Source of the DNA: Anadara kagoshimensis
Lineage: Eukaryota; Mollusca; Bivalvia; Arcoida; Arcidae
Direction of reading: 5' to 3'
Assembly (NCBI GenBank): GCA_021292105.1
Contig: CM037874.1
Span: forward strand, 11,638,502-11,702,501
DNA: 64,000 nt
Shown here: positions 682 through 63,752 of the stretch, piece after piece
Numbering within the stretch: position 1 is the stretch's first letter
Layout of the letters: the number at the start of each line of letters is the position of its first letter
Made by a program: the position numbers and the translations under genes
Notes under the pieces: generated by a model
The model's input: only the letters and a program-made list of their open reading frames with translations
What the model was told of the DNA's origin: nothing
Databases searched by the model: none

Positions 682-1441
682 ATGGGATATTTCATTGTGT
701 TTCAGCTACTAGTTCTTCTTTGTGTTACGTCGGTTAACTCCCAGGACGATGATTTTCTTTATGGACAATTTCCAGATGGATTCAAATGGGGCGCTTCTAC
801 CTCGGCTTATCAAATAGAAGGTGCATGGAATGCTGATGGTAAGTTTTTGTTGTAATGTTGGTGTTACTATTATTTTTATCTACAGTGCAGACCAATCGAA
901 AATATAAAAGTCCCACTTAGGTTGTCCAAAAGCTGCCAATATCAAGAATAAGTGTTACTTTCGACAGGTTGGTTGGTTAGTTGAATGTTGCTTAATGTCG
1001 CATTAGGAATTTTTCAGCTATTCGCGACGAGAACTATTTTATTAATCTCTATGGATTAATCTATGAACAATTTCGTGTATGCATGCGAAGTGCGAGTGTT
1101 TTATGGTCTGCTTTGTACTAGCACGCACTCAGGGCGACTTAAAGGTGCTGACTCACAGAGTCAGTACGCCGCAGACAAGCGTACCACTCCCCCAGTCCAT
1201 TATACTGATACCAGGTTAACCAGTAAAGGCCAACGGCAAGGAAAACTCACTTTCGCACATGTGTGGTCTGAGCGGGACTCGAACTCACAGCGGTGAGAGA
1301 CCCTGGATTTGTAGACTGACGTCATATCCATTAGGCCACCGTAGCCTACTTTCGACAGGTCTGTACTGTATCAACCTAAAATGATCTGATTACACCGCGG
1401 TGCGTTATCATTATCATCTATGTGATAGAGGCATGGATTAC

Positions 1442-1497
<56 letters not shown>

Positions 1498-7400: not shown

Positions 7401-10400
7401 AAGTCATACTACTGTACCTTTAAGGATCTTATAAGTTTGCAGCATTCTTGAAAAAAAACCTCTCATTACACACTTCACAAATGAATAGGGGATCACTAGA
7501 ATAGCAATATAATTGTTAGATGCTAAATATTCGATTTTACTGAACATCATGACACCATAATGGATGGTATATAGATAATACAAATAGTGAAACCTTTATT
7601 GTATATCACATGCCATATCGTCCAGATACACAAATATCAAAAAGAAGACTTTAGTCTGATTTCGGTCGAGGACTGATATGACATTTCATATGGATTTTAT
7701 CATGCTATCTTATACTTAAACTTTCACCATGTAGAAACAAATGCATACAACAGGTACTAAAATGACAAAATTGGCCGAATCGATATAATTTTACATATAG
7801 CAACTACACTTCATTACTAACCACCTGGGTGGCTCAGTGGTAGTGTTTGGTTCAAGTATCCATGACTGACTAGATTAACAAGGAAGATTCTTTTCAAACA
7901 ATATGTTTATTTCTTCTTTGGTGATAGGATCTGCCTGTTTAGTTCTATTTCCTTTCCCCTGTTGTCTGAGATACTTCCGTTTTGACGCTAACACTTCTCT
8001 TACGTGTGAGAATTCTCGGCCTTCCATTATCCTCGACCGTCCGTGATTCGAGACTCTAATAGAAAACGAACTAAATTTGCTAACGCAACAAGAATTTGAG
8101 AGCTGAAAAATAGACAACTGATTTTTCTGGATAGTTTCACAGTAAATACCTAAATTTTGTCTTTAATGCATGAAATCGTCACTGTAGAGACGATACTCGC
8201 GTATAATAACTGAAAATAAAAATGGCCTCGAATCTTGGGACGCTCTCGATTTTAGGACGGTCGACGATATATCTATCACATATTCTTTCTGCTTCAAATA
8301 ACGACCGATACTAGTTTGCATAGATTTCATAGTATCAGGCTCGTATTCGCTGCCATCGTTCTTTACAGCCGTCATAAAAAATGTTGCTAATTGCATGTCT
8401 AGTTCAGGTGCGCTCAATTCTTCGATTTCCCTGGTTTCATTTCTTGTTGCAAGCCAGGTACGGAATTTGTTTATGTCCGAATTTGTTTTCCTTACTGTGT
8501 TGGGGTTTCGCATTTTTTCTATAAATTCATGCGTGCTTCTGTCAGGCGTTTCTCTGTCCATGGTCTGTCGTTCTATTAAGCCGCCCAAATCTAGCAATCT
8601 ATTTGCGAGAGAATTCATCACTCTCTCGCCCCTTTCATTGTTTACAAACAAACGTCTGCTCGGATTTTCCTCTTCAGCTAGGCGAACCGTTATGAACATT
8701 AAGGATGCAGCCCGAGGAGTTTCGAAACGATAAAGTAATTTGTTCCGAGTAGCCGGTCTGATATGCATATCAGACCAGCGGTGATATGGCTTTTCCGACC
8801 GGGCACGTGCGGTCGGCGATACGGATCACGTCATTTTAGCCGTGTCGGGGTATGCAGAAACTACGTAATTAGTACTAAGTATATGATAAAAACAGAATAA
8901 AACATGGTGAAAACCATATCATATGCCATATCAGACCTCAACCAATATCAGACCTCGGGCTAAAGCCCTCGGTCTGATATTGGGTTCTCGGCCAGATGTG
9001 GCATATGATATGGATTTCACCATGTATTATTCTCTATTTATCATTATTATCATATTTAAACACTCAAAAGTTAAGATGATCCAAAAAGACGTGTGATATT
9101 TTGGGTGTGGTATAGGCATTAGAGGTGTGACAAACATACGATAAAGATTTATAAATTTATTAAGAATTCATAATAAGTGTCTCATTTGTATTTCTATATT
9201 TCAGGATCGTCTGATTTCTTCTCTTTAAATTTCTATTCATCTCGATTAACGTCCTCAAACTATTCAAGCCGCACCGATGACTATAAGAGTGATATGGCCG
9301 TTAACCAGGAAGTGGACCCTTCATGGACTGGGTAAGAAACATTAACCTCTTGTCTGTGATTAAACTGGGTTTAGCAATTAATTACTGTCAGAGACGTTAT
9401 GTTTGTGAAGTTACGTCTTTTTCCATAGAAAGTCAAATAAATCTGAAGGAAAATTGATAATATTCACTTTCTTGTATCTAGTCGTATGCGCATCCGTATT
9501 CCTGAAGAAAGGAAAATGTTGGCACTACGGGATTTTACATGGTGAAAATGATGATGTTAACACCGGAAATGATGTCCTTAGTGACGGTATACGTCATATG
9601 CGCAATAGGGTCTGCCATTTGCCTGGATATAAAAAGTATTTCACTGTCCCAAACAGACCGGCTCTGACAGAAAGTTGCGATTTAAGGTTTCAGTCAGACA
9701 GGTTGAACTGTTTATGACATTAACAGGACAATAATAAACAAGCAAATTATAACATGGTATTAAGTTAATATTTACACTTTCATTTTGCACTCAAAATTTT
9801 TTATTATTTTTTTTACACGACAAGATGAGGTATTTTGAAATACAAATTTCAAAATATGCCACTATATTATTTTTATTATTATCATTGCAACACTAAACAC
9901 TTAAAACATTTAAATGTCAAGAGGTTGTCTGGGCTTTTGTTGCTTGTTTTGTTTGTTTATTGTTTCATGCTCTTGATTGTGTTGTCTTATGCTTAGTACA
10001 AAACTTCCTCTATTTCAAAGTCATATTGATCAGTTGTCAATACATGGCTAACGATCATAGTCATAAAGTAGTAAAAATTAGAAATATGAAATTTAAAACT
10101 GAACAACACCTACTTGACAATAATCAACGTAACCAAAAAACACGGAACAGTACTGATTGGTGACGGGCGCAGGACATTTCGTCAATCCTGTCTCACGGAA
10201 TAGGTTAAGAAAAAATATTGCTCAAATGTCTACTATATATTTGGAATTTCGCTCAATTGGGTTAAAATTCTGTCGCTCAAATGTCCAATACTTATTCACT
10301 CAAACGTCCAATTTTTCACTCTTTTGTCCCATGATTTCGCTCAAATGTCCAAAACCGTTGTTGACCGTTCTAGACAGCCAAAGAAGATTAAAAGGGCAAA

Positions 10401-38229: not shown

Positions 38230-38546
38230 TCCTCTGTGTATAATTCAATACTGTATAAGAAAATCGTTGTCGAGGATAAATTACTCTTGATTTTCACGCC
38301 GCGAATATCTTTTTCAGCGAAAATTTCTTATTTCCTGTGGTGCACTACAGTCGGAGCGTTGAAAATTTCTTGTCGCGAAACAGTTTGCAAGATCAAAACC
38401 CGAAATTTTTCTAACGCTTATGTTTCTTCTTATACAGAAAACATCCTTGATTTTTTCTTAAATCATTTTATTATATATCACTGCTTATTTTATGATGTCA
38501 TGTTCATTATGGCGAATACACAAAATGCGTAAAGGTACAAATTCAA

Positions 38547-38552
38547 AATAAA
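38547..38552 (+). terminator. candidate polyadenylation signal of the GH1 gene
   Basis: AATAAA about 320 bases after the stop codon at 38229. It is the first canonical hexamer I noticed downstream. Assignment is by position only. Confidence 0.35.
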
Positions 38553-40485
38553 AGTAGGCGTTACAGATATATTCAATTTGTGTACATTTCATAACCGAAC
38601 GAGAAAAAAACCAAACATACTAATGGAAATTAAAAAAAATCAAAAATCAAAGTAAAAACTTTGAATCTGACATATAAGGTTAATCACCTCCCTACAGTTA
38701 AGCAAGCTTCATCCGCCACGTCCAAAATTAAAAGAGTAATTGTTAAGCAATGGGTGCAAATGAAACGATCATCTAATTTAGCTGTCAGAATGTCGTAAGT
38801 TAACATAAAAAAAAAATTGTAAAATGCATATGTAGCTAGCTGCTTTACTTATACATGATTGTAGATCGCGACACAAAAAATATAAAAAGGTAAAAACTAC
38901 AATTTAAAAAAACAACTATGTTTGCAAAATTGCAAAACATTTACTCTTGCAACAGCCAAAATTAACCAAGAACATTGAAAATTTTAAGACGGGAGCAGAA
39001 AAACAAGAGATTTCAAACGTGACAGATACTGGACGTAATGACAGCATAGCGAAGGTTGATATGGAAGGGTAAGCAACCCATGTTAAGCTAGCTGTACAGC
39101 GACGTTTGAAATAGAAATTGAGAATGAAAGGAACAAGAAACTATTATAGTGTAATTTTGGATATAATTACATCACACCCTTCAACAATATTGTGATGACG
39201 GTCATAAAACTTTTTGAGGGCCTTGATTAGCCTGTGCTAATTATATCCGGCAGCCGGTTGTAAATGTTGATTATCCGAACACGTAAAAAGTAAAGTATAA
39301 ATGGGAAAAACAAAAAACATTATATAAAAAGGCTGGATATTTTAAATATATTTATTGGAATTGATCTAATACTTATTTCTCTTTAGACTGAATAATAATG
39401 ATTCACAATATACAAATATATACACTGGGTATAGTTAAATCCTACTTAATACTGCATACTAAAATAAAGGTGGAAACAAAGCGAACGGTTATTAAAACTT
39501 GAGCAACGCATAAAGTATATTGTAAGCAACTAAGGTTTGGTTGGAGTTGATCATCTAGTCAATATTGACGAAGTGTTCCATAAGACGAAAACTGACCTGA
39601 GGCATGAGTTTTGAGTTTACGTGTAATATGTACATTGTCTACCATGGAGCCCGTGAAAGGAAAGTTAAATAACATCATGTTTGTGTTCTCATGTAATAAT
39701 ATTTTGTTCCAACGCAGTGATATTTTGTTATCACACAATGATATTTTGCGATAATCCCCAAGCAGTGATAGTTTGTTCCCACGAAATAGTAATTCGATCT
39801 GACGCATTAGTTATTCGTTCCCACGCAAAAGGTTTGCGTTTATACGCAATGGAGTTTCGTTACCTCGCAATACTTTTGCGTTTCGACGCAATTATGTCTT
39901 TCTTCTGCAAAAAATTTTCATTTCCACGCAATGCAGTTTCGTTCCCACGCAATAGTATTTTGTTCCCACCACGCAATAATATTTAGTTCCCATAACGCAA
40001 AAGTAATTCTATCACAATGAATTCCCCAGTTATCATACTGCCAACTATCACATTATATATTTATATTTCCACACCTGTGTAAAATGCTTGTTAAAATATT
40101 AACACCGTATTGTTTTTCTCAATCCTTTATTTCCTGCTCTGCTTCTTTTGTCGTTTTGTCTCAACATTTTTAACATTCCCCTGGCATTTTTCGGTTTTTT
40201 TTTTAATTTGCCGTAGATGGCTGTCTTGTTTTGTAATGATTTACCTCTACATTTGTACATTCACAAGCGGTACAAAAATTCGTACTTGTGATAACCTTTT
40301 ACTGTAAACGTAATTTTATCTGAATAACCTTGTTTAAGATAAGCATTTACATTATGGCCTTTGTCTGAACAAAGACTTAAGATAAGGCGGAAAGATGTAT
40401 TCTTTTATGTATACAGGTCTGTTGATGATGTTTTATTTAAGTAATGCATATGTGGTTTCTGCATTGATGAAAATATTTTGATCAG
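38553..40485. other. interval between GH1 gene and C1q-like gene
   Basis: Contains reverse-oriented retroelement 3' debris (about 38590-38720 and 39040-39250) and a short-period tandem repeat at 39690-40010, then T-rich DNA. A signal-peptide exon of the C1q-like gene would be expected here, but I could not identify one with a matching donor. Confidence 0.4.
39690..40010 (+). repeat. degenerate short tandem repeat, TTCCCACGCAATAGTATTTTG type
   Basis: About 12-14 imperfect copies of a roughly 24-base unit built on GTTCCCACGCAAT followed by A/T-rich filler such as AGTATTTTG. Unit spacing is irregular (20-30 bases). No conserved coding frame runs across it. It is not a CRISPR array, because the spacers are not unique and the genome is animal. 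Confidence 0.75.
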
Positions 40486-42350
40486 GTTAAACGAAATTGA
40501 AAAACGTTTGGAAAATGTTGAAAGACTAGAAAACCAAAAACGAAGAACTGAAATTGAAGCTGGAAAATATTCAAACGGAAAACAATGACATGAAGCTAAA
40601 ACTGAAAAAAATTCAAACGGATCATTCAAAAAAGTTTCAAGAAATTGAAGATAAATTATCTAAATGTGATATTCGTGGTAGAAATCTTGGAGATATGCTA
40701 AAACAGAAGTTAAGCATGTTAGAAAGGCTTGTTTCTGGACAAAACGACTTAACGTATCGACATAGTGCCAAAAATAATTTCCAAACAGGTGCCTCCAGCT
40801 TCAAGGAGTCTTCAGAAGGGTTAAAGACCAACCAGGGTAATAAAACTGTCACAATTGAACAGACGGTGAAAATCGTAGGTGACGAGAACAATTTAGATAA
40901 GCGTAATAGTTCGTTTGATAAGAGAAGTGAAAGGGGAAGTTTAAAGAAAGAATATCCACGGAAAAGAGGAATGTCAGGTAACATATATACATTTAAATTA
41001 ATCTTAAAAATAAACATACCAATCCATGTACGTCCAAATCACTATCCCGAAGCAAAGTTAAAGCTTAAAAAACTGGCAAATGAAGTAAGATACATGAACT
41101 TCCATTCATGGAAGTGAGATCGGGTGTTCTGAATAGACTAAGCACCTACTGTTAAGCTGGCTACACGAAGTTATGTGTTGTCAAAATTGAGAAGGAAAAT
41201 TATCGTTCAAAGGAATGATTGATTGATTGATTGGTTGGTTGATTGATTAACGAGAGTTATACGGCCAAGTCAAGAACATTTCGCGTATATCGAGACGTAA
41301 CCAGCTATAGGTGAAGTGGCAGAAATTCGATCTTTGCATTGCGCTCACAGCATTGTGCAGGGATTGCTCTCTGCCTTGACATGTAGCATCGGGTTTATTG
41401 GCCTGATTCGAAAAACCCCTTCAATCGAATGTAATGAACTTGGAACTGAACTTACAAACAGAAGAGAAAATATAACATAATATGACATACTGTTTACAAA
41501 AATTTCTAATTGCGGATAGTATTAGTGGCTAAAAATTGATTACCCAGTTCACTTTGAAGTCGTTAGATGGTCATTTCGGAATTAAATTCCTCATCGGTAG
41601 TGTCTGGACAAAAAATGTGAAACTAAACTCTTTAGTTATTCTTTTGAATTATTTTCACTAAATTTCTAAATTTCCAACACTAAATGGTATTTATAGTAGT
41701 ACATGAGCAACAATTTTTAACAGAGTAAGAGAAGTATCCTAGCCATGTGTATATCAAGTAGCTTACTGGTATCTTCGTTTAAATCTTAGATGGTCATCAA
41801 GTCGGTCGTTGTGGCATCTTAAATATACCCAAGTGCATTCCAAAGCAAGAGAAAATATATTTTCTAGGTTTGCTACCCCAAAAGAAACAAAATATTAGAA
41901 TTGTTATACTTTTGGAACTTTTTTTATATTTTTACAGGACTAACTAACAAAGTGGCATTTATGGCCGTTCTTAATAGATCTGTGAACAATCTAGGGTATG
42001 GACAAATTATAGCATTTCCTTAAGTGCTTCTCAACGAAGCCAACGCATATTCAGGTTCTGATGGTATATTTGTATGTCCACAATCCGGTTTATATTTGTT
42101 CTCATACAACATATTTCTTGTGGCCCACACAGGTAGCGTGGCATTTTGTGGTGTACAGTTTAAAGTGAACGGACATCCATATTACGAATCTTATGAAAGT
42201 TTATTCGATGAACACGAAGTAGAAAATGCTGGAGCCACATTTGGTGTACGATTAAACGCCGGTGACCATGTTTGGATAGCGTCGGATAAGTCAGGAACAC
42301 AACTCTATGCAGGAAAAACATATTTTATGGGCGTCTTACTGATGGAATAA
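40486..42350 (+). pseudogene. C1q-domain protein with coiled coil, probably disabled
   Basis: C1q-domain proteins are secreted trimeric lectin-like recognition proteins, greatly expanded in bivalves. Two exons are visible. Exon 40486-40977 (acceptor GATCAG, donor GTAACA) encodes a Leu/Lys/Glu heptad coiled coil. Exon 41938-42350 encodes a full C1q jelly-roll, with VAFMAVLNRS, then GSDGIFVCPQSGLYLFSYNI and a final YFMGVLLME. Two lesions are seen. The run of five A at 40536-40540 shifts the frame and would read through with four. A TAA at 42021-42023 interrupts the domain between IIAFP and VLLNEANAY, where a Lys codon would fit. The open frame upstream of 40486 reads CGFCIDENILIRL, so the exon may start earlier. 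A signal-peptide exon was not found. A sequencing error could explain the shift but less easily the stop. Confidence 0.75.
41215..41420 (-). mobile_element. SINE of the CTCGATATAAGT family, in the C1q intron
   Basis: The minus strand ends in (AATC)n (visible as GATTGATTGATTGATTGG at 41217-41250). The body contains CGTCTCGATATACGCG- and GAAATTCGATC-like family segments. The tRNA head is missing. Confidence 0.6.
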
Positions 42351-49236: not shown

Positions 49237-50950
49237 TCAACCGAAGATTCCAATAGGTCCATCACATGGTTTCGTTGGATCACTCCGTAAAACGGCCTTT
49301 GGGGAGCACCCGTCATATAATACCATACATGTATCTGGAACAGTCATTCTTCCACCAGTACTGCAAATGAAAAAAATACCTCAATATATACAGACAAACC
49401 CGTCTATAAAGGTCACTCAAACGAACAAGTAAAAGTGACCTTTATGGGCAGGTGGTCTTTATAAACAGGTTCAAAAAATATGAGTAAAAAACAATTGGGA
49501 TACAATTCTACTGGCCTTTATAAGCAGGTGGCCCTTATATAGAGGTGACTTTAAAGCAGGTTGAACTGTATATCGATTGTTACCAAAGCCTCTAACTTAA
49601 ATTGTTTAAAATTGAACAAAACTTCGCAACACTACAGCCATATCATATATATATACAGTTGACTCTCGTTATCTCGAACTCGACGGGGAAATGCAAAAAG
49701 TTCGACTTATCCGGAGTTCGAGATAACCGATGTTAAAAACGGCAATAAAAGGGAAGTAACTCGTACACGCCTACCGGAAGTCGCTTCCGGTTTTATCTTG
49801 TCAAACTCTATATTGCCGTTTTCTCATTTATCGTATGTATTTAAACACGATATATAAAACTGCATTATTATAAGATTTTCTTTAATTACTTAAATCTGTC
49901 AATAACCGATTGCGCTATTGTTATTAGCCGACAAATAGTGGAATCCGCTTTGGTCTCCATACCAGTTTCGCTTTGTGTACTTTAATCACCCCAAGCTTCC
50001 GGTTGTATTGAGTAATGTTCTCATCACGCTTTTCGGCAGCCATGTTCAGCTTGGCAGTAATTATAACACCTGTTAATCTCCTTGAAGGTTTAATTGCTTA
50101 TGCAAGGGATAATAATTAAGGGCTTAAGGAAATTGGGAGGTCAGTGAAATGTTGTCATTTTAAAATCAACACGAGGCCGACAGTCAAATATTTTATTAAT
50201 GTCGGAATGTGTTTTTTCTACCAAAAAATTTGTAGGCGTTGACAAATTTGATTTTCCAAAATTTTGTGTTCGAGTTAACAAATTTAATTTTCCTAAATTT
50301 TTTGTTCGAGTTAAGAAATTTAATTTTCCTAAATTTTTTGTTCGAGTTAACGAGTGTAATTTTCCTAGCATTTTCATTCAAGGGGACGAAAATATTGTTC
50401 GACATATCCGATAATTCGAGATATCCGAGTTCGAGATAACCGGAGTGATTTTGGTTTAATAAAGAACAACTCTGTTCGGACTTTTTAAAAAAGTTCGAGA
50501 TATCCGGTAGTTCGAGATATCCGAGTTCGAGATAACGAGATTCAACTAAATAAATAAATAATACATACTAAATACTGAAGAAAGGAAATTATCATATTTA
50601 AGGATTTGGGTTTGTTTTTCAATCATTCATCAATGTATGAACTGTTAAACAAGCTGGGGTAAATCATATACACCACAAAGTGATAACACATTCATTGTAT
50701 GAATATATAACAATCATTCTATACTGAAGAAATGAAATTATTATATTTAAGGATTGACCTTCGTTTATTTAATAGTTTCATCAATGTATGAACCGTTAAA
50801 GCAGGCTGAGACAAGTCACATACATCGCGAAGTGGTGTATCGTTGATACGTTTGATAAGAATAATTTGATTCCATATACTTTTACCCAGTGGCGGATTTA
50901 AGGGGGGGGTTGCGGGGGTTGCAACCCCTCCTTTGAAAAAAATTAAAAAT

Positions 50951-50983
<33 letters not shown>

Positions 50984-53900
50984 CTATTGACTGATTTGAC
51001 CCCATATGTTAATATAACAACCCATTTCTGTATACTAAGTACGTGTTGTTCTGGCTCTGACTTAGACCCCTCGTCTCTGGAAGCTCGCGCCTTCGGCGCT
51101 CGCACCTAGCATTGATATAATTTTCAACCCCCACTTTCAAACATTCCTGGATCCGCCCCTGCTTTTACCTCAGTTAGTATAAAAGACGACAAAAAATTGA
51201 AATCTCAGAAATATGTACTTGGCAATATCGAATAGAGTAACAGCACAAAACAAAAAGAAATAGAAACAAGCAAGTCATAACCAAAACTTGGACCTTATAA
51301 ATCGTGTCTAGAAGAAAGGAAGCATGCAGCTCAAAATAGCAAGATATAGAAACGAACAAAGAAGTTAAAACTTAACCGGGACCATATAAATCTTGCCTAG
51401 AAGAAAGGAATTCTTTATGTTTGAAATATCGAATTGAGAAGCAGCATGAAACAACAAGATATAAAAACAAGCAAAGAAAATGATACCAAACTGAAACCAC
51501 ATTAATCTTGCCTAGAGGAACGAAAGGAATTCTTTATGTTGGAAATATCGAATCGCGGTGCAACACTACACAACAAGAAATAGAAACAAGCAAAGAAGTG
51601 AAAACCAAACTGGAACCACCACAGCAATCTTGCCTAAAAATAGGACATTTTTAATGTTGGAAATATCGAATCGAGAAGCAGCATGAAAAATTAAGTAATA
51701 TAATTAAGCAAAGAAGTGAAAACCAAACTCCGACCACATAAATCATGCCTTGAAGAAAATAATTCTTAATGTTAGAAATATCGAATCGAGATGCAGCACA
51801 AAACAACAAGATATGGAAACAAACAAAGGACTTGATACCAAACTTGGACAATAAAAATCTTGCATAAAAAAGGAATTCTTAATGTTGGAAACATAGAATC
51901 GAGAATCAGCACAAAACAACGAGATAAAGAAACAAGCAAAGAAGTGAAAACCAAACTGGGACTACATAAATCTTGCCTTGAAGAATGAAAGAAATTTTGA
52001 AAGTCGAGAAGCAGAACGAAACAACCAGACATAGAGGCAAGCTAAGAAGTTAATACCAAACTGGGACCACATAAGTTTTTTCTATAAGATAGGAATTCTT
52101 AATGTTGTAAATATATTATCGAGAAGCAACACGAAACAGCAAGATATAGAAGCAAGTAAAGAAGTGGAAAACAAAACTGGGACTACATCAATCTTGCCTA
52201 GCAATAAAGAATGTTTAATGTTGGAAATATCGAATCGAGAAGCAGCACAAAACAACAAGATATAGAAACAAACAAAGAAGTTAAAACTAAACTATTACCT
52301 AGAGGAAAAGAATTATTTATGTTTGAAATATCGAATTTAGAAGCAGCATGAAACAACAAGATGTAGAAACAAGCAAAGAAGTTGAAAACCAAACTGGAAC
52401 CACATTGACTTTGCCTGTTAGAAAGAAAGGCATTCTTTTTGTTGGAAATATCGAATTGAGATGCAGCACAAAACAACAAGATAAAGAAACAAACAAAGAC
52501 ATTGATACCAAACTAGGACAATATAAATCTTGCATAGAAAAGGAATTCTTAATTTTGGAAACATAGACATATAATCGAGAATCAGCACAAGACAACAAGA
52601 TAAAGAAACAAGCAAAGAAGTGAAAACAAAACTACATAAATCTTGTCTATAAGATAGGAATTCTTATTGTTGGAAATATCGAATCTAGAAGCAGAACGAA
52701 ACAACAAGATGTATAAACAAGCAAAGAAGTAAATAATAACCTGGGACCATATAAATCTTACCTAGAATATAGGAATTCTTAATGTTGGAAATATCGAATC
52801 GATCGAGAAGCAGCATAGAAACATCAAGTAATAGAACCATCAAAGAAGTAAAATTCAAACTGGGACCACATTAACCATGCTTAGAATAAAAGATAATCTT
52901 TATGATGTAAAACCAACTACTATTAGTGAAGTTATATTATAATCTTAACATACCAAATACCCTTACCTACAGCAAGCCATTCCTCCATACATATCGCAAT
53001 TGCAATCTATACATCCAATCCGTAATTTCGAATTAAGTGGTATGAAATGACCCTCAAAATGACATCCCCGAAGTCCTATGAATAATATCATGAATTTATA
53101 ATTATGCATTTTAAGTAATAAAGTCAAATTCTGAAAATACAAAAGCAAGAAAAATTTCATATTTTACGATAATCAAACAGTTACCGTAAATCGGGATTTT
53201 TTTGCTGTGGTTTTATTTTTGGCGATTTTGCGGATGAAAAAATTCGCAATTTTTAAGATTTTTAATACAAATTAAAGTTTAATTATCAATTAACATCAGC
53301 TTGGATGACACTTTACTACCAGCCGACTATGTTTACTCAACCGACACAGGAAGTATACATGTACTCGGACCATACAGAATGTATTTATAAACTGAATTCT
53401 GATTGGCTGAGATTGTCGTCTTCACCCAGATCGATGTGTTGGATGTTATAATCAGTAATAAACCATTTTAACGGTTTCAGTAAATTTGTATTAAAAATCT
53501 TAAATCCGCAAAAATTAAACACGCAAAAAATAACATACGCATTTTTTAAAAAATCCGCAAAATTTGCACCACGCAAAAATAACCCGATTTACGGTATATT
53601 TTCTGTTGATTTCACAGAATCCCTTGTTTCGAACCCGGAATGCCTCAAAAAGACATCCTCGAATTCCTATAATGCATTTAAGTAATGAAGTCATATTCTG
53701 AAAAAATAAAAGCAAGGGATTTCCTATGCATGCATTTTACTATCAAACTATGTATTTCTTGTTAATTTCACAAAAATTGCTGCTACGAATGTTGGCTGTC
53801 ATGGATTTAAACCTCGACGGGGGTCTGACAAAGTCTTGAAAATAGGCAGTGACTGTTCTTTCGTCTAGCACTTGGAATTCAGAAATGAAAGTCACGGGGT

Positions 53901-54354
53901 CTTTCGACAGAGACCTTAAAACAGATACTACTTGTCACGACATGAGTGGCACGTTAAAGAATCTTCCCCGCACATTGTCCTGGTAAAAGTAAAAATATAT
54001 ACCACTTCACTAATAGCTGGTGACATCTCGATATAAATGAAATATTTTTGACAGGGTGGTAAAACCTATTCAATCAATCAATCAATCAATCAATTAATCA
54101 ATAACAAAACTCTGTTTGACTAGACAAAATTCATCTCCTATCTTTCTGCAGTTAAATATAATTTAAGTGATATGTCAGTCGTTGATAGTGACATTTAACC
54201 ACTACGTATTATCATTCACATTCATATAAACTTCACTTTAATAATGGTTACCGAAGACTGGGTTAAAACTGGAACAGAAACCATCACAATGTGTTAACAT
54301 CAGTTGTAGTAACAAGAACACAATCTGTTTTCCCATCAATGTCTGGCGTTTCAT
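49237..54354 (-). CDS. beta-microseminoprotein-like secreted ten-cysteine protein, copy A
   Basis: Three minus-strand exons: 54354-54252, 53075-52967, 49360-49237. Borders are GT/AG with phases 1 and 2. The spliced frame is open for 111 codons plus TGA. The start at 54354 (or Met7 at 54336) opens a signal peptide, QIVFLLLQLMLTHCDG. The mature part has ten cysteines at about 27, 39, 56, 59, 61, 69, 70, 82, 89 and 103. The Cys-x2-Cys-x-Cys-x7-Cys-Cys core, then x11, x6 and x13 spacings and a DPxKPC end, match the PSP94/MSMB family (x2, x1, x6, CC, then x13, x8, x13). Exon boundaries fall at family-like places. MSMB relatives are small secreted proteins that bind other secreted proteins; the function here is unknown. 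Intron 2 (3.6 kb) holds the minisatellite and two transposons. A further 5' non-coding exon is possible. Confidence 0.82.
49389..49570. mobile_element. MITE, TACAGTCCAACCTGTC family (shared by both units)
   Basis: Ends TACAGACAAACCCGTCTATA and AAAGCAGGTTGAACTGTA. The same insertion is at 57093-57274 in unit B, so it predates the duplication. It lies just upstream of the acceptor of microseminoprotein exon 3. Confidence 0.75.
49656..50548. mobile_element. pogo/Tigger-like non-autonomous element, unit A only
   Basis: Terminal inverted repeats CAGTTGACTCTCGTTATCTC (left) and GAGATAACGAGATTCAACT (right) have the form typical of pogo/Tigger DNA transposons. The inner ends repeat GTTCGAGATATCCG. 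The interior has no transposase frame but holds a local tandem repeat. Unit B reads across the site (near 57357) without it. It lies in intron 2 of the copy A microseminoprotein gene. Confidence 0.75.
50220..50395. repeat. tandem repeat of about 36 bp inside the pogo-like element
   Basis: Three to four copies of GTTCGAGTTAACAAATTTAA followed by TTTTCCTAAATTTTTT. The repeat makes overlapping open frames on both strands that are not genes. Confidence 0.8.
50887..51161. mobile_element. hAT-type MITE with 8-bp target duplication, unit A only
   Basis: Ends CAGTGGCGGATTTAAGG and CCTGGATCCGCCCCTG are inverted repeats of the CAGNGGCGGATCC type seen in hAT elements. A perfect 8-base direct repeat, CTTTTACC, flanks it at 50879-50886 and 51162-51169; eight bases is the hAT hallmark. 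The interior holds a (GA)n run (50956-50983). It lies in intron 2 of the copy A microseminoprotein gene. Confidence 0.85.
51215..52915 (-). repeat. minisatellite, unit about 116 bp, unit A
   Basis: About 14-15 imperfect copies of a unit containing AATGTTGGAAATATCGAATC, GAGAAGCAGCACAAAACAAC, AAGATATAGAAACAAGCAAA and CCAAACTGGGACCACATAAA. Spacing between successive GGAAATATCGAATC motifs is about 115-116 bases, so the frame shifts from unit to unit. The open minus-strand frames across it (Cys/Phe/Leu-rich) are by-products. It fills about half of microseminoprotein intron 2. Confidence 0.85.
53182..53596. mobile_element. MITE with TACCGTAAATCGGG ends, unit A
   Basis: Inverted ends TACCGTAAATCGGGATTTTT and AAAATAACCCGATTTACGGTA. 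Inner GCGGATGAAAA and TTTTCCGC-type motifs also mirror each other. It separates microseminoprotein exon 2 from its decayed copy. Confidence 0.75.
53610..53666 (-). pseudogene. decayed extra copy of microseminoprotein exon 2
   Basis: The minus strand after an acceptor (GCATTATAG) reads IRGCLFEAFRVRNKGFC, which resembles the start of exon 2 (LRGCHFEGHF) but is shortened and lacks the CxxCxC core. The flanks also match exon 2 flanks (GTAATGAAGTCATATTCTGA versus GTAATAAAGTCAAATTCTGA), so exon and intron edge were duplicated together. The same relic occurs in unit B near 61438-61494. Inference: an old internal duplication, not used. Confidence 0.5.
53790..54097 (+). mobile_element. SINE of the CTCGATATAAGT family with (AATC)n tail, unit A
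   Basis: Body from GGATTTAAACCTCGACGGGG through AAAGAATCTTCCCCGCACAT to GGTGACATCTCGATATAAAT, then (AATC) repeats at 54071-54097. It lies in microseminoprotein intron 1, just past exon 1. The unit B counterpart is at about 61620-61920. Confidence 0.75.
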
Positions 54355-54444
54355 CGTTTTCTTGTTTTACTACAATTCCTTGTACCAGTGCTTTTTACAA
54401 AACTTCTATACAAAAAGGTTAACAAAAATACATTAAATGTGTAA

Positions 54445-54758
54445 ACACTATGGCAGCTCAGTTGACACAGTGCTAGCTTCTTATGTAGGAGGTCATTCGT
54501 TCGAACCCCGACAGTGAGTGGTCTGAACCAAGACTTGAAAATTGGTAGTAATTGTTCTTTCGCCGTTGTCCTTCATAAAAAGACATTACAACAAACTACT
54601 GTTCCGTGTCACTGCAGGCGTATCACGTTAAAGAACCCTCACATTGTCCTAAGCGTGCGGTATCGGTAAAAAATTCTGTCACTTCACTTATAGCTGTTTA
54701 TATCTCGATTTAACCGGACGTAAAACTTGTCAATCAATCAATCAATCAATCAATCAAC
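54445..54758 (+). mobile_element. SINE with tRNA-like head and (AATC)n tail, unit A
   Basis: The most complete member of the family. The head is GGCAGCTCAGTTGACACAGT with B box GTTCGAACCCCGAC, then the body with TTAAAGAACCCTCACATTGT, then TATATCTCGATTTAACC and six to seven AATC units. It lies just upstream of the microseminoprotein copy A start. The unit B counterpart is at 62256-62570. Confidence 0.8.
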
Positions 54759-56009
54759 TGTGTCACGTGTTATCGATGTTATAATATTCATTTTATGGAG
54801 AATCATTTGAAATACAGAACACATTAGATATGATAACCGGAAGTACAGTTTCTTTGTTTTTCATTTGTATAACTGGCTGCGGATTTTAATTCACAACGTA
54901 ATGACTTCTATATTGTTTATCACTTGATATTATTTTGTTATTATTCTTCAACCAGCCTTCAAGTTTGCTGTTTGTTAAAAAATCTAAGGCATACTTCTTC
55001 ATGCAAAGTATTTCCTTAGCTAACTTTGGTAAAATATATTTTCATTGGTACTTTGGGTATCTTTTCAACATCATAAAAAATGGTTTAATCATTTATTGTT
55101 TTATCATTACTGATAAGGAATTGTATTCCAAAACGGTCGTCTAGTGCTGGTAGAATTTGTAATTCAACGATAATATAACTGACTGAAACAATATATACTT
55201 TTAAGCCTTTATATTGTATTAAGTAAATCCATCTTCAAAAAGATGCATACTTACCCAATTACTAGAATCTCTTATTGCCTTCACGACTTTTACAAATTCA
55301 AGATTTTTTTGTTATCCAGATTAACTACTATATAATCACGATACTGTGGAATATAACATTATTTCGCAGATTCAGAATCAATACTAGGGCACATACAGTA
55401 CAGACTTGTCGAAAGTTGTAAAATAGGTAAAGGAATTAGTGACAAAACGACAGCTTATTACAGCAATATCTCGACAGCTTTTTGGCAGCTGCTTTGTATT
55501 TCGTCTAGGCAGTTTTTCGATCACTAGCTATCAATATGTCAGTCAGTGGGCAGCTGGACATCGGCTCCTTTTAGTTAGCTCAATGTTAAACTGTCGACAG
55601 GTCTGTACTGTTTATATGGATATTAAATGTTGACTTAATTGATTTAATATTATATCAATATAATCATAAGAGATTCACGATATTAATATATTTCAATTAT
55701 GTATAGCATGTCCTGTAAACGATGTATGACCATCACCCATGGTCACAATGATCCTTATGGTGGCATACATAGATGTATAAAAAATAATTAACGGTATTAA
55801 TTTACTACTTGTGTTTTTGAGACAATGCGTAAAAATCTGTGTTGCGGATGAATTCACAAAACTGGGCATATATATATATATATATCGTTAAGAGCTGTCA
55901 AGACCTAGATAGAAAATTATAAGACAAGCATACAACGTAACAAAATGTATCGAAAGCCGAACACTCCGACAAGGGGCCGGCATGCTTGAAAAAGAAAGAA
56001 AACTTGACC

Positions 56010-56440
56010 ATATTTGTGCGGTTTAGTGCGGTAATTTTTTGCCGTGACGCTGCTTTGGTACCGTGATGGCGAACAGTGTCGGAACATAATATACGTCAAC
56101 TGTATCACCACTGGATTTATTCAATTATCACTAAAGACATTATAGAATGAACTCTGTTTACAAATAAAATGCATACTCAAGTATATTATAAGTCGACACT
56201 TATCAAAGACCAAAATAAGTTTTATAGTCGTCATCACAGTATTGTTGATAAGTATGATGTCTCTGTATCCAAAATTATTTTATATAAATTGATGTCCATT
56301 AATATCTAAAATAATTTTGTATACAAAAATATCATTTTTTATAAAAATAAAAAAATACACTGGTCGCCATCATGGTACCAAAGCAGCGTCACGGCAACCA
56401 ATGACCTACTGGTGTGATGGAGTGTACCGGGGTGGTGTTA
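56010..56440. mobile_element. inverted-repeat element at the junction of units A and B
   Basis: TTGCCGTGACGCTGCTTTGG near 56041 and its complement CCAAAGCAGCGTCACGGCAA near 56380 are long inverted repeats of about 40-60 bases. The left arm recurs at the end of unit B (63925). Between the arms are retroelement-like bases (GTCGTCATCACAGTATTG at about 56230). No transposase is present. Confidence 0.6.
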
Positions 56441-57092
56441 TTGATGGATTTTAAGTTTCAATCGCATGGATTTCATGGAAACTATAGATAGTAGGCTCTC
56501 TTCAATATGACGGCAACTCAATAATTTATTTAACATATTAAAATTATTTTTTCGACGAATTTGCTTTTTGAAACTTGCTATTTATTTTATGATACAAAAT
56601 TTGTTATTATGAATTATTATTTAATCAAGTTATGATATAGAAAAAACCTTACAAACAAAATCAAGAAAATATCACAATCTAATTAAGCATACATATATTA
56701 TATATACACGTGTAACCCAAAATCATACTCTTCCTGTTCCAAAATGACCCAACCAAACTTTGATGTTGGCATGAGAAACAAAGATGGACAAATGAATTTT
56801 ACAAAATACTATAGTGAATGTATTGGATTGATAATCCTATGTAAATATTCAAAATGGGAGGTCAAGCGAACGGGTCAATGTTGTTTGTCCGTATAAATAA
56901 TAAAAATATCTATGGTAACGATCAAATAAATCTTGCACACATCAACCGAAGATCCCAACAGGTCCATCACACGGTTTCTGTGGATCACTCCGTAAAACAG
57001 CCCTTGGGGAACACCCGTCATATAATACCATACATGTATCTGGAACAGTCATTCTTCCACCAGTACTGCAAATGAAAAAATACCTCAATATA

Positions 57093-57274
57093 TACAGACA
57101 ACCCCGCCTATAAAGGTCACTCAAACGAACAAGTAAAAGTGGCCTTTATGGGCAGGTGGCCTTTATAAACAGGTTCAAAAAATATGAGTAAAAAACAATT
57201 GGGATAAAATTCTACTGGCCTTTATAAGCAGGTGGCCCTTATATAGAGGTGGCTTTAAAGCAGGTTGAACTGTA
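57093..57274. mobile_element. MITE, TACAGTCCAACCTGTC family (unit B counterpart)
   Basis: Allelic counterpart of the element at 49389-49570, with the same flanks and only a few substitutions. Confidence 0.75.
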
Positions 57275-57702
57275 TATCGATTGTTACCAAAACCTCTAAC
57301 TTAAATTGTTTAAAATTGAACAAAACTTCGCAACACTACAGCCATATCATATATATAAAATAAATACTAAATACTGAAGAAAGGAAATTATCATATTTAA
57401 GGATTTGGGTTTGTTTTTCAATCATTCATCAATTTATGAACTGTTAAAACAGGCTGGGGTGAATCATATACATCACAAGGCGATAACAGATTCATTGTAT
57501 GAATATATAACAATCATTTTATACTGAAGAAATAAAATTATTATATTTAAGGATTGACCTTCGTTTTTTTTTAAATAGTTTCACCAATGTATGAACCGTT
57601 AAAGCAGTCTGAGACAAGTCACATACATCGCGAAGCGGTGTATCGTTGATTTGCTCCAGCCTGTTTGAATATACGTTTGATAAAAAAATGATTCCATATA
57701 CT

Positions 57703-58991
57703 AGGGGAAGTCAGAAAGTTCATAGAACAGCGTATTCAGCCAAGCGTAACACACATTTTCTTTACTTATTTAGACAACACAACATTCCGCCATTTTTAAC
57801 ATATCAAGTTTATTTGTCACAATATATTTGTGTAATTCTCAAAAGCATTCAAAGTTGGTGACCATCAAGCAATGGTAGAAAATAAAAATGTTGAGTTTAG
57901 AGCAGTAATAAAGTTCCTCACAGTAGAGGGATCAAATGCCAAAGAAATTCACCGGCAATGGCCGAGGTGTACGGTGACAGTGGTCCTGTCTATTCCACAG
58001 TGGCAAAATGGTCAGCTGAATTTAAACGTGGGCGCACCTCACTGAAGGATGACCCACGGTTAGGTCGGCCAGCTGATGCCATCACAAAGGAAATTGTCAC
58101 GTCTGTGGAGACCCTCATCATGAATGATCGTCGAATTAGGATTGATGACATAGCTAGGGAGTGTGACATTTCACATGAAGGTGTATACACGGTTATCCAC
58201 GAGCATCTTGGGATGTCAAAAGTATCCGCAAGATGGGTCCCCAGAAACCTTAATGTGCAGGATCTTCCAAAGACTCCTGTCAAGTCGGGAACTTCTTGGC
58301 ATTTATAATGATAACCCGGAGAGCTTCCATTTATGTTTAGTAACTGGTGATGAAACATTGATTCATCATTGGGACACAGAAACCACAAAAGAGTCCATAC
58401 AATGGAAGCACCCTGGCTCATCGCCACCAAAGAAATTTAAAACCCAACCATCAGCTGGCAAAGTCATGGCCATTGTGTTTTGGGATTCTAAGGGTGTTCT
58501 GTTAATCAATTATAAACCTGCTGGTCTCTTTCACTGGGGCTTACTATGCTGATCTAATGAAGCAGCCGAAAGCTGCTATTAATTTAAAAAGTAGGGGAAA
58601 GTTGAGCCGAGGGGTATTGCTTCTTCACGACAATGCTCCTGTGCACAAGTCAAGGATTGCACAAGCAGCGATTCGTGAATGCAAGTTCGAACAATTTAAT
58701 CACCCACCCTACAGTCTCGATTTGGCACCCAGTGATTATTTCCTATTTAGAAAGTTGAAATCCCATTTACGGGGAATCAGATTTCCTGATGATGATGGAC
58801 TTAAGGCTGTCACAGAGGCATGGTTTCAGGACCAAACCGAAGATTCCTATTTAAAAAGTATGGACAGTCTGAAAGAAAAGTGGGCTAAGTGCATTGGGGT
58901 TAAATGGGGACTATATTGAAAAATAATAATAAAATGTATGGTTTGTTGCGGCAATATATAGCCCGTTCTATGAATTTTATTTACCTCCCCT
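57703..58991 (+). mobile_element. mariner-like transposon, unit B only
   Basis: About 1.29 kb, the usual mariner size. Inverted ends of about 28 bases: AGGGGAAGTCAGAAAGTTCA at the left and TGAATTTTATTTACCTCCCC at the right. It encodes a broken transposase. Unit A lacks it at the matching place, where a hAT-type MITE has inserted instead. It sits within the second intron of microseminoprotein copy B. Confidence 0.85.
57872..58919 (+). pseudogene. mariner transposase, disabled by at least three frame breaks
   Basis: Cut-and-paste DDD/D transposase. The start ATG at 57872 is followed by helix-turn-helix-type sequence (KWSAEFKRGRTSLKDDPRLG) and then the catalytic region: TGDETLIHHWD with the first Asp, LLLHDNAPVH with the second, and SLDLAPSDYFLF with the third. 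About 34 residues separate the last two, as in mariner. The end WGLY precedes TGA at 58917-58919. The frame changes near 57957, 58270 and 58530, so no full-length protein can be made. About 345 codons if compensated, the normal length. Confidence 0.88.
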
Positions 58992-59039
58992 CCTACTACT
59001 ACCTCAGTTAGTATAAAAGAAGACAAAAAATTGAAATCT

Positions 59040-60735
59040 CAGAAATATGTACTTGGCAATATCGAATAGAGTAACAGCACAAAACAAAAAGAAATAGAAA
59101 CAAGCAAGTCATAACCAAAACTGGACCTCATAAATCGTGTCTAGAAGAAAGGAAGCATGCAGCTCAAAATAGCAAGATATAGAAACGAACAAAGAAGTTA
59201 AAACTTAACCGGGACCATATAAATCTTGCCTAGAAGAAAGGAATTCTTTATGTTTGAAATATCGAATTAGAAGCAGCATGAAACAACAAGATATAAAAAC
59301 AAGCAAAGAAAATGATACCAAACTGAAACCACATTAATCTTGCCTAGAGGAACGAAAGGAATTCTTTATGTTGGAAATATCGAATCGCGGTGCAACACTC
59401 CACAACAAGAAATAGAAACAAGCAAAGAAGTGAAAACCAAACTGGAACCACCACAGCAATCTTGCCTAAAAATAGGACATTTTTAATGTTGGAAATATCG
59501 AATCGAGAAGCAGCATGAAAAATTAAGTAATATAATTAAGCAAAGAAGTGAAAACCAAACTCCGACCACATAAATCATGCCTTGAAGAAAATAATTCTTA
59601 ATGTTAGAAATATCGAATCGAGATGCAGCACAAAACAACAAGATATGGAAACAAACAAAGGACTTGATACCAAACTTGGACAATATAAATCTTGCATAAA
59701 AAAGGAATTCTTAATGTTGGAAACATAGAATCGAGAATCAGCACAAAACAACGAGATAAAGAAACAAGCAAAGAAGTGAAAACCAAACTGGGACTACATA
59801 AATCTTGCCTTGAAGAATGAAAGAAATTTTGAAAGTCGAGAAGCAGAACGAAACAACCAGACATAGAGGCAAGCTAAGAATTTAATACCAAACTGGGACC
59901 ACATAAGTTTTTTCTATAAGATAGGAATTCTTAATGTTGTAAATATATTATCGAGAAGCAACACGAAACAGCGAGATATAGAAGCAAGTAAAGAAGTGGA
60001 AAACAAAACTGGGACTACATCAATCTTGCCTAGCAATAAAGAATGTTTAATGTTGGAAATATCGAATCGAGAAGCAGCACAAAACAACAAGATATAGAAA
60101 CAAACAAAGAAGTTAAAACTAAACTATTACCTAGAGGAAAAGAATTATTTATGTTTGAAATATCGAATTTAGAAGCAGCATGAAACAACAAGATGTAGAA
60201 ACAAGCAAAGAAGTTGAAAACCAAACTGGAACCACATTGACTTTGCCTGTTAGAAAGAAAGGCATTCTTTTTGTTGGAAATATCGAATTGAGATGCAGCA
60301 CAAAACAACAAGATAAAGAAACAAACAAAGAAATTGATACCAAACTGGGACAATATAAATCTTGCATAGAAGAAAGGAATTCTTAATTTTGGAAACATAG
60401 ACATATAATCGAGAATCAGCACAAGACAACAAGATAAAGAAACAAGCAAAGAAGTGAAAACAAAACTACATAAATCTTGTCTATAAGATAGGAATTCTTA
60501 TTGTTGGAAATATCGAATCTAGAAGCAGAACGAAACAACAAGATGTATAAACAAGCAAAGAAGTAAATAATAACCTGGGACCATATAAATCTTACCTAGA
60601 ATATAGGAATTCTTAATGTTGGAAATATCGAATCGAGAAGCAGCATAGAAACATCAAGTAATAGAACCATCAAAGAAGTAAAATTCAAACTGGGACCACA
60701 TTAACCTTGCTTAGAATAAACGATAATCTTTATGA
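59040..60735 (-). repeat. minisatellite, unit about 116 bp, unit B
   Basis: Same array and nearly the same unit order as in unit A. It differs mainly by single-base changes and small indels, so array length has changed little since the duplication. Confidence 0.85.
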
Positions 60736-61010
60736 TGTAAAACCAACTACTATTAGTGAAGTTATATTATAATCTTAACATACCAAATACCCTTACCTAC
60801 AGCAAGCCATTCCCCATACATATCGCAATTGCAATCTATACATCCAATCCGTAATTTCGAATTAAGTGGTATGAAATGACCCTCAAAATGACATCCCCGA
60901 AGTCCTATGAATAATATCATGAATTTATAATTATGCATTTTAAGTAATAAAGTCAAATTCTGAAAATACAAAAGCAAGAAAAATTTCATATTTTACGATA
61001 ATCAAACAGT

Positions 61011-61424
61011 TACCGTAAATCGGGATTTTTTTTGCTGTGGTTTTATTTTTGGCGATTTTGCGGATGAAAAAATTCGCAATTTAAGATTTTTAATACAAAT
61101 TAAAGTTTAATTATCAATTAACATCAGCTTGGATGACACTTTACTACCAGCCGACTATGTTTACTCAACCGACACAGGAAGTATACATGTACTCGGACCA
61201 TACAGAATGTATTTATAAACTGAATTCTGATTGGCTGAGATTGTCGTCTTCACCCAGATCGATGTGTTGGATGTTATAATCAGTAATAAACCATTTTAAC
61301 GGTTTCAGTAAATTTGTATTAAAAATCTTAAATCCGCAAAAATTAAACACGCAAAAAATAACATACGCATTTTTTAAAAAATCCGCAAAATTTGCACCAC
61401 GCAAAAATAACCCGATTTACGGTA
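61011..61424. mobile_element. MITE with TACCGTAAATCGGG ends, unit B
   Basis: Counterpart of the unit A element at 53182-53596, with the same flanks, so it inserted before the duplication. Confidence 0.75.
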
Positions 61425-61619
61425 TATTTTCTGTTGATTTCACAGAATCCCTTGTTTCGAACCCGGAATGCCTCAAAAAGACATCCTCGAATTCCTATAA
61501 TGCATTTAAGTAATGAAGTCATATTCTGAAAAAATAAAAGCAAGGGATTTCCTATGCATGCATTTTACTATCAAACTATGTATTTCTTGTTAATTTCAAA
61601 AATTGCTGCTACGAATGTT

Positions 61620-61920
61620 GGCTGTCATGGATTTAAACCTCGACGGGGGTCTGACAAAGTCTTGAAAATAGGCAGTGACTGTTCTTTCGTCTAGCACTTG
61701 GAATTCAGAAATGAAAGTCACGGGTCTTTCGACAGAGACCTTAAAACAGATACTACTTGTCACGACATGAGTGGCACGTTAAAGAATCTTCCCCGCACAT
61801 TGTCCTGGTAAAAGTAAAAATATATACCACTTCACTAATAGCTGGTGACATCTCGATATAAATGAAATATTTTTGACAGGGTGGTAAAACCTATTCAATC
61901 AATCAATCAATTAATCAATA
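61620..61920 (+). mobile_element. SINE of the CTCGATATAAGT family, unit B
   Basis: Counterpart of the unit A copy at 53790-54097, with a shorter AATC tail. Confidence 0.7.
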
Positions 61921-62255
61921 ACAAAACTCTGTTTGACTAGACAAAATTCATCCTATCTTTCTGCAGTTAAATAATTTAAGTGATATGTCAGTCGTTGATA
62001 GTGACATTTAACCACTACGTATTATCTACACTCATATAAACTTCACTTTAAAATGGTTACCGAAGACTGGGTTAAAACTGGAACAGAAACCATCACAATG
62101 TGTTAACATCAGTTGTAGTAACAAGAACACAATCTGTTTTCCCATCAATGTCTGGCGTTTCATCGTTTTCTTGTTTTACTACAATTCCTTGTACCAGTGC
62201 TTTTTACAAAACTTCTATACAAAAAGGTTAACAAAAATACATTAAATGTGTAAAC

Positions 62256-62538
62256 ACTATGGCAGCTCAGTTGACACAGTGCTAGCTTCTTATGTAGGAG
62301 GTCATTCGTTCGAACCCCGACAGTGAGTGGTCTGAACCAAGACTTGAAAATTGGTAGTAATTGTTCTTTCGCCGTTGTCCTTCATAAAAAGACATTACAA
62401 CAAACTACTGTTCCGTGTCACTGCAGGCGTATCACGTTAAAGAACCCTCACATTGTCCTAAGCGTGCGGTATCGGTAAAAAATTCTGTCACTTCACTTAT
62501 AGCTGTTTATATCTCGATTTAACCGGACGTAAAACTTG

Positions 62539-62570
<32 letters not shown>
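62256..62570 (+). mobile_element. SINE with tRNA-like head and (AATC)n tail, unit B
   Basis: Counterpart of the unit A copy at 54445-54758, with a longer AATC tail. Confidence 0.75.
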
Positions 62571-63674
62571 CTGTGTCACGTGTTATCGATGTTATAATAT
62601 TCATTTTATGGAGAATCATTTGAAATACAGAACACATTAGATATGATAACCGGAAGTACAGTTTCTTTGTTTTTCATTTGTATAACTGGCTGCGGATTTT
62701 AATTCACAACGTAATGACTTCTATATTGTTTATCACTTGATATTATTTTGTTATTATTCTTCAACCAGCCTTCAAGTTTGCTGTTTGTTAAAAAATCTAA
62801 GGCATACTTCTTCATGCAAAGTATTTCCTTAGCTAACTTTGGTAAAATATATTTTCATTGGTACTTTGGGTATCTTTTCAACATCATAAAAAAATGGTTT
62901 AATCATTTATTGTTTTATCATTACTGATAAGGAATTGTATCCAAAAACGGTCGTTACTGATAAGGAATTGTATTCAACGATAATATAACTGACTGAAACA
63001 ATATATACTTTTAAGCCTTTATATTGTATTAAGTAAATCCATCTTCAAAAAGATGCATACTTACCCAATTACTAGAATCTCTTATTGCCTTCACGACTTT
63101 TACAAATTCAAGATTTTTTTGTTATCCAGCTTAACTACTATATAATCACGATACTTTCGAATATAACATTATTTCGCAGATTCAGAATCAATACTAAGGC
63201 ACATACAGTACGGACTTGTCGAAAGTTGTAAAATAGGTAAAGGAATTAGTGACAAAACGACAGCTTATTACAGCAATATCTCGACAGCTTTTTGGCAGCT
63301 GCTTTGTATTTCGTCTAGGCAGTTTTTCGATCACTAGCTATCAATATGTCAGTCAGTGGGCAGCTGGACATCGGCTCCTTTTAGTTAGCTCAATGTTAAA
63401 CTTTCGACAGGTCTGTACTGTTTATAGATATTAAATGTTGACTTAATTGATTTAATATTATATCAATATAATCATAAGAGATTCACGATATTAATATATT
63501 TCAATTATGTATAGCATGTCCTGTAAACGATGTATGACCATCACGCATGGTCACAATGATCCTTATGGTGGCATACATAGATGTATAAAAAAAATAATTA
63601 ACGGTATTAATTTACTACTTGTGTTTTTGAGACAATGCGTAAAAATCTGTGTTGCGGATGAATTCACAAAACTG

Positions 63675-63752
<78 letters not shown>

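Follow-up and report, generated by a model that had tools for sequence, protein, structure and literature searches.

The window analyzed here, a stretch of 64,000 nucleotides of Anadara kagoshimensis (C18:11638502-11702501), contained a gene with three short coding exons on the minus strand at 49237-54354, hereafter A1. Its junctions had been proposed from the bare sequence, and they proved exact to the base, with both phases right. The coding exons of A1 were as follows.

54252-54354, minus strand: coding exon 1, with the start codon, a signal-like segment, and cysteine 1 of ten (spliced frame); the following intron is in phase 1
52967-53075, minus strand: coding exon 2 (109 nt), with cysteines 2-7 including CxxCxC and CC; it ends in phase 2
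49237-49360, minus strand: coding exon 3 (124 nt), with cysteines 8-10 and the stop codon

The exon lengths were 103, 109, and 124 nt, and splicing gave a single open frame of 111 residues plus the stop, with in-frame stops immediately 5' of the first ATG. Both introns were of the GT-AG type, with the borders GTAACC..CATAG and GTAAGG..TGCAG and the phases 1 and 2, respectively. A hydrophobic stretch was read from the sequence ahead of the first cysteine. The ten cysteines were spaced by 11,16,2,1,7,0,11,6,13, and directly before them an eleventh closed the signal-like segment; a mature protein with ten cysteines thus presumes cleavage after the eleventh. The PSP94/MSMB order of the ten, which the sequence-only reading had claimed, was present in A1 and in register with chicken MSMB3.

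Other features were also observed in the window. Exons of glycosyl hydrolase family 1 (GH1) formed a run over 4240-30859 on the plus strand, where 3/3 tested ORFs matched PF00232 with E 5.9e-33 or better; they apparently belonged to a tandem beta-glucosidase gene or a lactase-like gene with several domains. Between this run and the PSP94-like array, a C1q-domain ORF (PF00386, E 1.9e-12) was located at 42024-42347 on the plus strand. Exons of these two kinds would fit a bivalve. On the minus strand, a 220-aa ORF at 8166-8825 showed a weak QRICH1 likeness (E 2.8e-5, under the cut-off) and perhaps, as a guess, came from a tyrosine-recombinase element. The Rfam and tRNA scans of the 64,000-nt window gave no result.

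The idea of A1 as a single gene in the window was rejected, as a second, frameshifted copy (A2) occupied 56942-62163. A third gene, A3, started just past the window end (C18:11703343-11705844). Furthermore, a second cluster (B) was found at C18:22.404-22.414 Mb, about 10.7 Mb from the first (A). It held two genes: B1, which was A1-like and open, and B2, which was A3-like and had a one-base insertion in exon 3. The features of A2 and of the duplication were as follows.

62061-62163, minus strand: A2 exon 1, 103/103 identical to A1
60797-60904, minus strand: A2 exon 2, 108/109 identical to A1; a one-base deletion causes the frameshift
56942-57065, minus strand: A2 exon 3, 116/124 identical to A1, with the same residues as A3 exon 3 (C18:11703343-11703466)
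51152-55885, unstranded: duplicated unit, copy 1 side, paired with 58986-63695
58986-63695, unstranded: duplicated unit, copy 2 side, paired with 51152-55885
57608-57703, unstranded: probable hybrid junction of A2 from informative sites, A3/B2-like toward lower and A1/B1-like toward higher coordinates

The two sides of the duplicated unit were 98.4% identical over 4744 columns, with 31 mismatches and 44 gap columns, and the PSP94-like array was shown to have grown by local duplication. At 56199-57702, A2 was 97.6% identical to A3 (17 mismatches). From 58986 on it was 98.4% identical to A1, and the stretch 59000-59610 was only 85% identical to A3. The informative sites were A3/B2-like up to 57608 with few exceptions and A1/B1-like at 57655-57664, with one contrary site at 57667. 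The informative sites and the switch in identity together placed the exchange within 57608-58986, probably closer to the former position. Judged from these alignments, A2 is a hybrid, with exons 1-2 A1-like and exon 3 A3-like. A single unequal crossover between a downstream-type gene (A1/B1) and an upstream-type gene (A3/B2), located in intron 2, would give the order A3 - hybrid - A1, and we consider such an unequal exchange the probable origin of A2. The introns also carried repeats, inserts, and a relic.

51241-52911, unstranded: array of units of about 101-120 nt in A1 intron 2
59053-60741, unstranded: counterpart array in A2 intron 2
57703-58985, unstranded: transposon-like insert in A2 intron 2, with transposase pieces in different frames
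53643-53748, minus strand: decayed relic of exon 2 with its upstream (5') intron edge, within A1 intron 1

The intron 2 arrays could have aided the misaligned exchange. The insert at 57703-58985 contained HTH_32 and DDE_3 pieces, both below the Pfam cut-off, and was also found in B1 and absent from A1 and A3; we take it to be of the Tc1/mariner type. A further insert of about 275 nt, at 50887-51161 in A1 intron 2, had short inverted ends between GGTAAAAG direct repeats and was absent from A3 and B2; it is presumably a miniature element of the hAT type. The relic was closer to the A3 exon (E 2e-19) than to A1's own exon 2 (7e-13), and its A2 partner included 61472-61501.

The surroundings of both clusters were doubled at the points sampled. 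Five of five stretches from 11.30-12.10 Mb of C18 had same-strand partners in the same order at 21.94-22.79 Mb, with 95-99% identity. Partners 10.6-10.7 Mb away were found for window positions 1000-2500 (95% identical) and 38000-39500 (99%), for most of 11.709-11.712 Mb (97%), and for the stretches at 11.300 Mb (96%) and 12.100 Mb (95%). Two control places were uninformative on haplotype doubling: L044 was a dispersed repeat, and the match list for L043 gave a tandem repeat 0.17 Mb away, not L043 itself. Going by these identities, the doubling over 0.8 Mb may reflect genuine segmental duplication or the other haplotype, retained in the assembly. It is possible that the A and B clusters, perhaps along with the tandem copies, are artefacts of the assembly: the 22.40 Mb cluster would be the other haplotype and, less likely, A2 a haplotype misjoin, with fewer real genes than counted. 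To this we give even odds. The collinearity of the five stretches is in agreement with it, as are the copy-to-copy divergence, which was about as low as the cluster-to-cluster divergence, and the single-base indels that disrupt A2 exon 2 and B2 exon 3. However, A1 and A2 lay on one contiguous stretch, their inserts differed, and their third exons differed at 8/124 nt; moreover, the type switch of A2 in intron 2 is what unequal crossing-over predicts. Because the sampled points were doubled, the gene counts may be too high, and the single-base indels could be sequencing errors.

Relatives of A1 were searched for in the whole genome (1.115 Gb, 36 contigs). With the A1 protein as query, 54 matches to exons were obtained up to E 10, and the 28 below 0.001 were all on C18 and C16; when divergent members were used in two more searches, C3 and C9 also yielded firm matches. 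Sixteen cores of exon 2 plus exon 3 were modelled (A1 and 15 others of the same genome), all without internal stops. Exon 1 was sought by a loose pattern, with no credible candidate for five of the 16 cores (C16_b, C16_d0, C9_a, C3_a2, and C3_b), and the 12 full-length proteins modelled were thus 11 of the cores plus C3_e, which is outside the 16. The gene at C3:22379438-22381065, whose exon 2 ran across the border of two retrieved stretches, was left out of the cores, and the modelled set did not include the isolated exon 3 at C16:36479127, a gene near C16:36436851-36439796, further exons, and weaker places. On C3, two groups of the family (22.36-22.45 Mb and 24.86-25.31 Mb) were mostly in opposite orientation and shared near-identical genes, which would fit an inverted duplication or a haplotype kept in the assembly. 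Exon 2 of the family was 106, 109, or 112 nt long, all 1 modulo 3, and the recurrence of the phases was partly built in, as the search pattern required them together with CC at the end of exon 2. Likewise, the intron after CC was found in A1 and in 16/16 cores, though by a pattern requiring that intron.

Selection on the frame was estimated by the Nei-Gojobori method, a test whose outcome, unlike the phases, was not built into the search pattern. The pS exceeded pN in 15/15 comparisons of A1 with the other cores. In the 10/15 pairs with finite dS, dN/dS was 0.19-0.38, and in the other 5/15 the synonymous sites were saturated (pS 0.77-0.83 compared with pN 0.43-0.49). Because synonymous rates exceeded nonsynonymous rates, the frame is under selection, and A1 was shown, on substitution patterns, to be a real coding gene with its frame kept by purifying selection. 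That A1 is a decaying pseudogene, open by chance, is highly improbable. Such decay might be suspected from the one-base indel in each of A2 and B2 and from the exon 2 relic inside A1 intron 1, but in A1 and B1 all 336 nt were open and the splice borders intact, and the excess of pS over pN argues against it. A chance open frame was rejected in view of the 16 open cores and the 15/15 comparisons.

Single-sequence searches were of little help in naming the family. A match of the A1 protein to the MSMB profile (PF05825) had been anticipated, and its absence named as one of two refuting outcomes, but Pfam named no family for it at E up to 10, a failure that we put down to sequence divergence. Neither the Pfam search of the A3 protein nor phmmer of A1 against the PDB gave a result. 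The PF05825 profile, run over the whole genome, pointed to four places, none of them above the cut-off and none of them A1, and the pattern scan found a family exon in none of the four. One of the four, L032, carried a VWC domain and was used as the VWC control. Among the 16 cores, Pfam named PSP94 in two (best 0.012, under the cut-off), VWC in three (best 0.0084), VWC2L_C in one (0.0015), FnI_RECK in two (0.015), and Pacifastin_I in one (0.04). For the one core whose PSP94 match was seen in detail, the score was 16.7 bits compared with the cut-off of 22. As the matches were mixed over the 16 cores, single sequences do not settle the family.

The profile evidence supported the kinship with PSP94/MSMB that the sequence-only reading had claimed. 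The 16-member profile, searched against all PDB chains with hmmsearch, matched six chains up to E 10, and the top four were two porcine MSMB chains (6.2e-5 and 6.8e-5), chicken MSMB3 (0.0029), and the snake small serum protein 2, SSP-2 (0.013). No VWC-named chain was among the six, and VWC chains were present in the collection. In hhalign, which retained 13/16 sequences of the family profile, the comparison with four PSP94-family sequences gave 96.3% (E 1.9e-9, 71 columns). Like for like, one porcine PSP94 gave 84.2% (E 7.3e-6, 65 columns) and the control, one VWC domain of the same genome, gave 5.0% (E 0.0079, 21 columns). Furthermore, the ten cysteines of chicken MSMB3 were all matched in 12/12 full-length members, and the extra cysteine just before the ten, in the signal-like segment, was found in 9/12.

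The protein might instead belong to the VWC or single-VWC group, with the PSP94 likeness confined to the shared CxxCxC...CC half. This is very unlikely. It would be in line with the weak Pfam naming of VWC in 3/16 members and of VWC2L_C in 1/16, and a true VWC domain itself weakly matched MSMB chains in the PDB (0.015-0.043). However, in the 9/16 members with match details, the VWC and VWC2L_C matches spanned residues 4-42 at most, mainly the exon 2 half, and CCxxC, the mark of a VWC domain, followed that half in none of the 16 members. The hhalign result over 21 columns, compared with 65 for PSP94, and the PDB search up to E 10 also argue against it. Membership in VWC (PF00093) was therefore rejected, as there was no full-length profile match and no CCxxC in the second half. 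It is very likely that A1 is a gene of the PSP94 family, and a profile built within one genome detects such genes where single-sequence Pfam misses them.

Compared with the vertebrate PSP94/MSMB proteins (PDB 1xhh, 2iz4, 3ix0, and 6rwc), the family had the same ten-cysteine order, with CxxCxC and CC, and about 30% identity over the aligned core, below the Pfam cut-off. The two C-domain loops were shorter than those of chicken MSMB3, by two and by one or two residues, respectively. The disulfides of chicken MSMB3 are C2-C43, C12-C35, C33-C42, C30-C66, and C57-C80 (PMC8167871). The middle coding exon had the same length modulo 3 as in PSP94/MSMB: exon 3 of the marmoset gene, which we read as the counterpart of the family's exon 2, is 106 nt long (PMC2746217, Table 4). 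Unlike A1, MSMB has a separate first exon, which carries the start codon at its end (PMC3268785). Vertebrate MSMP/PSMP has three coding exons, the same number as A1, and they are homologous to MSMB exons 2-4; MSMP is reported to be relatively well conserved (PMC3268785), whereas the A1 family was divergent. Arrays of PSP94 paralogs have been described in marmoset (PMC2746217) and opossum (PMC3268785). In the sea cucumber Apostichopus japonicus, 11 PSP94-like genes recognized by their cysteine pattern form a tandem array, and their expression has been linked to gut regeneration (PMC5638244). This echinoderm cluster is a tandem array like that of A1, a likeness of description, not of sequence.

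The literature search for PF05825 by its identifier found no paper. A 2011 report described MSMB-like genes from bivalves, gastropods, and cephalopods (PMC3268785, section 10), and the beta-MSP of the squid Loligo is an egg-capsule contact pheromone (PMC4500399, PMC3268785). These are protostome members too, likened to A1 by description, not by sequence. In addition, a beta-microseminoprotein transcript is listed with -3.03 in a table of the hemocyte response of the Manila clam (PMC4234419), MSMB is represented by a probe on a mussel array (PMC3552849), and a microseminoprotein precursor was raised in abnormally maturing animals of a marine snail (PMC10036341). The claim that invertebrate members are little studied was a fair one, yet the kind has been known from molluscs since that 2011 report. 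The rank of A1 as the most informative small gene in the window was likewise weakened, as A1 has many relatives and the family had already been described from molluscs. Such genes are already known in molluscs, and A1 is an ordinary but well-supported one. Our study adds a base-exact model, an overview of the family across one genome, and a hybrid duplication placed in one intron.

As for its function, the A1 protein would be secreted and would probably adopt a Greek-key N-domain and a small C-domain with five disulfides. Its action might be extracellular, with the N-terminal edge strand docked on partners that are possibly CAP/CRISP proteins, as in the case of vertebrate PSP94. The vertebrate protein binds CRISP3 by antiparallel pairing of its N-terminal strand, in which F24 matters, and blocks the sterol binding of CRISP2 (PMC8857485). 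Porcine MSMB has F-I-P at that strand, and we infer that its phenylalanine is equivalent to human F24. In 9/12 full-length members an aromatic residue stood two places before the position of the strand proline, with the proline itself replaced in one of the nine; it was absent in 3/12. CAP domains were also found in the same genome (seven exon matches above the cut-off). Because of this aromatic residue and these CAP domains, docking on a CAP protein would be the most likely single mode of action, though we suggest it tentatively. Another role recorded in the family is that of an egg protein in chicken, depicted as antibacterial (PMC8167871).

Taken as a whole, the best explanation of the locus is a PSP94-family gene in a tandem array with a hybrid copy, encoding a secreted binder, to which we give a probability of about 85%. 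The locus offers a PSP94-family array from outside the deuterostomes, with a model exact to the base and tested for selection, along with a gene duplication caught early, whose exchange point was placed within one intron. More speculatively, and with little probability, the two C18 clusters could be haplotypes with three and two genes, the third being the recent unequal-crossover hybrid. Individuals would then differ in their sets of a secreted PSP94-like signal, which would suit a part in egg or mate recognition such as squid beta-MSP has. Should the haplotypes really differ in copy number in this way, the family could serve to study the diversification of secreted recognition proteins in broadcast spawners.
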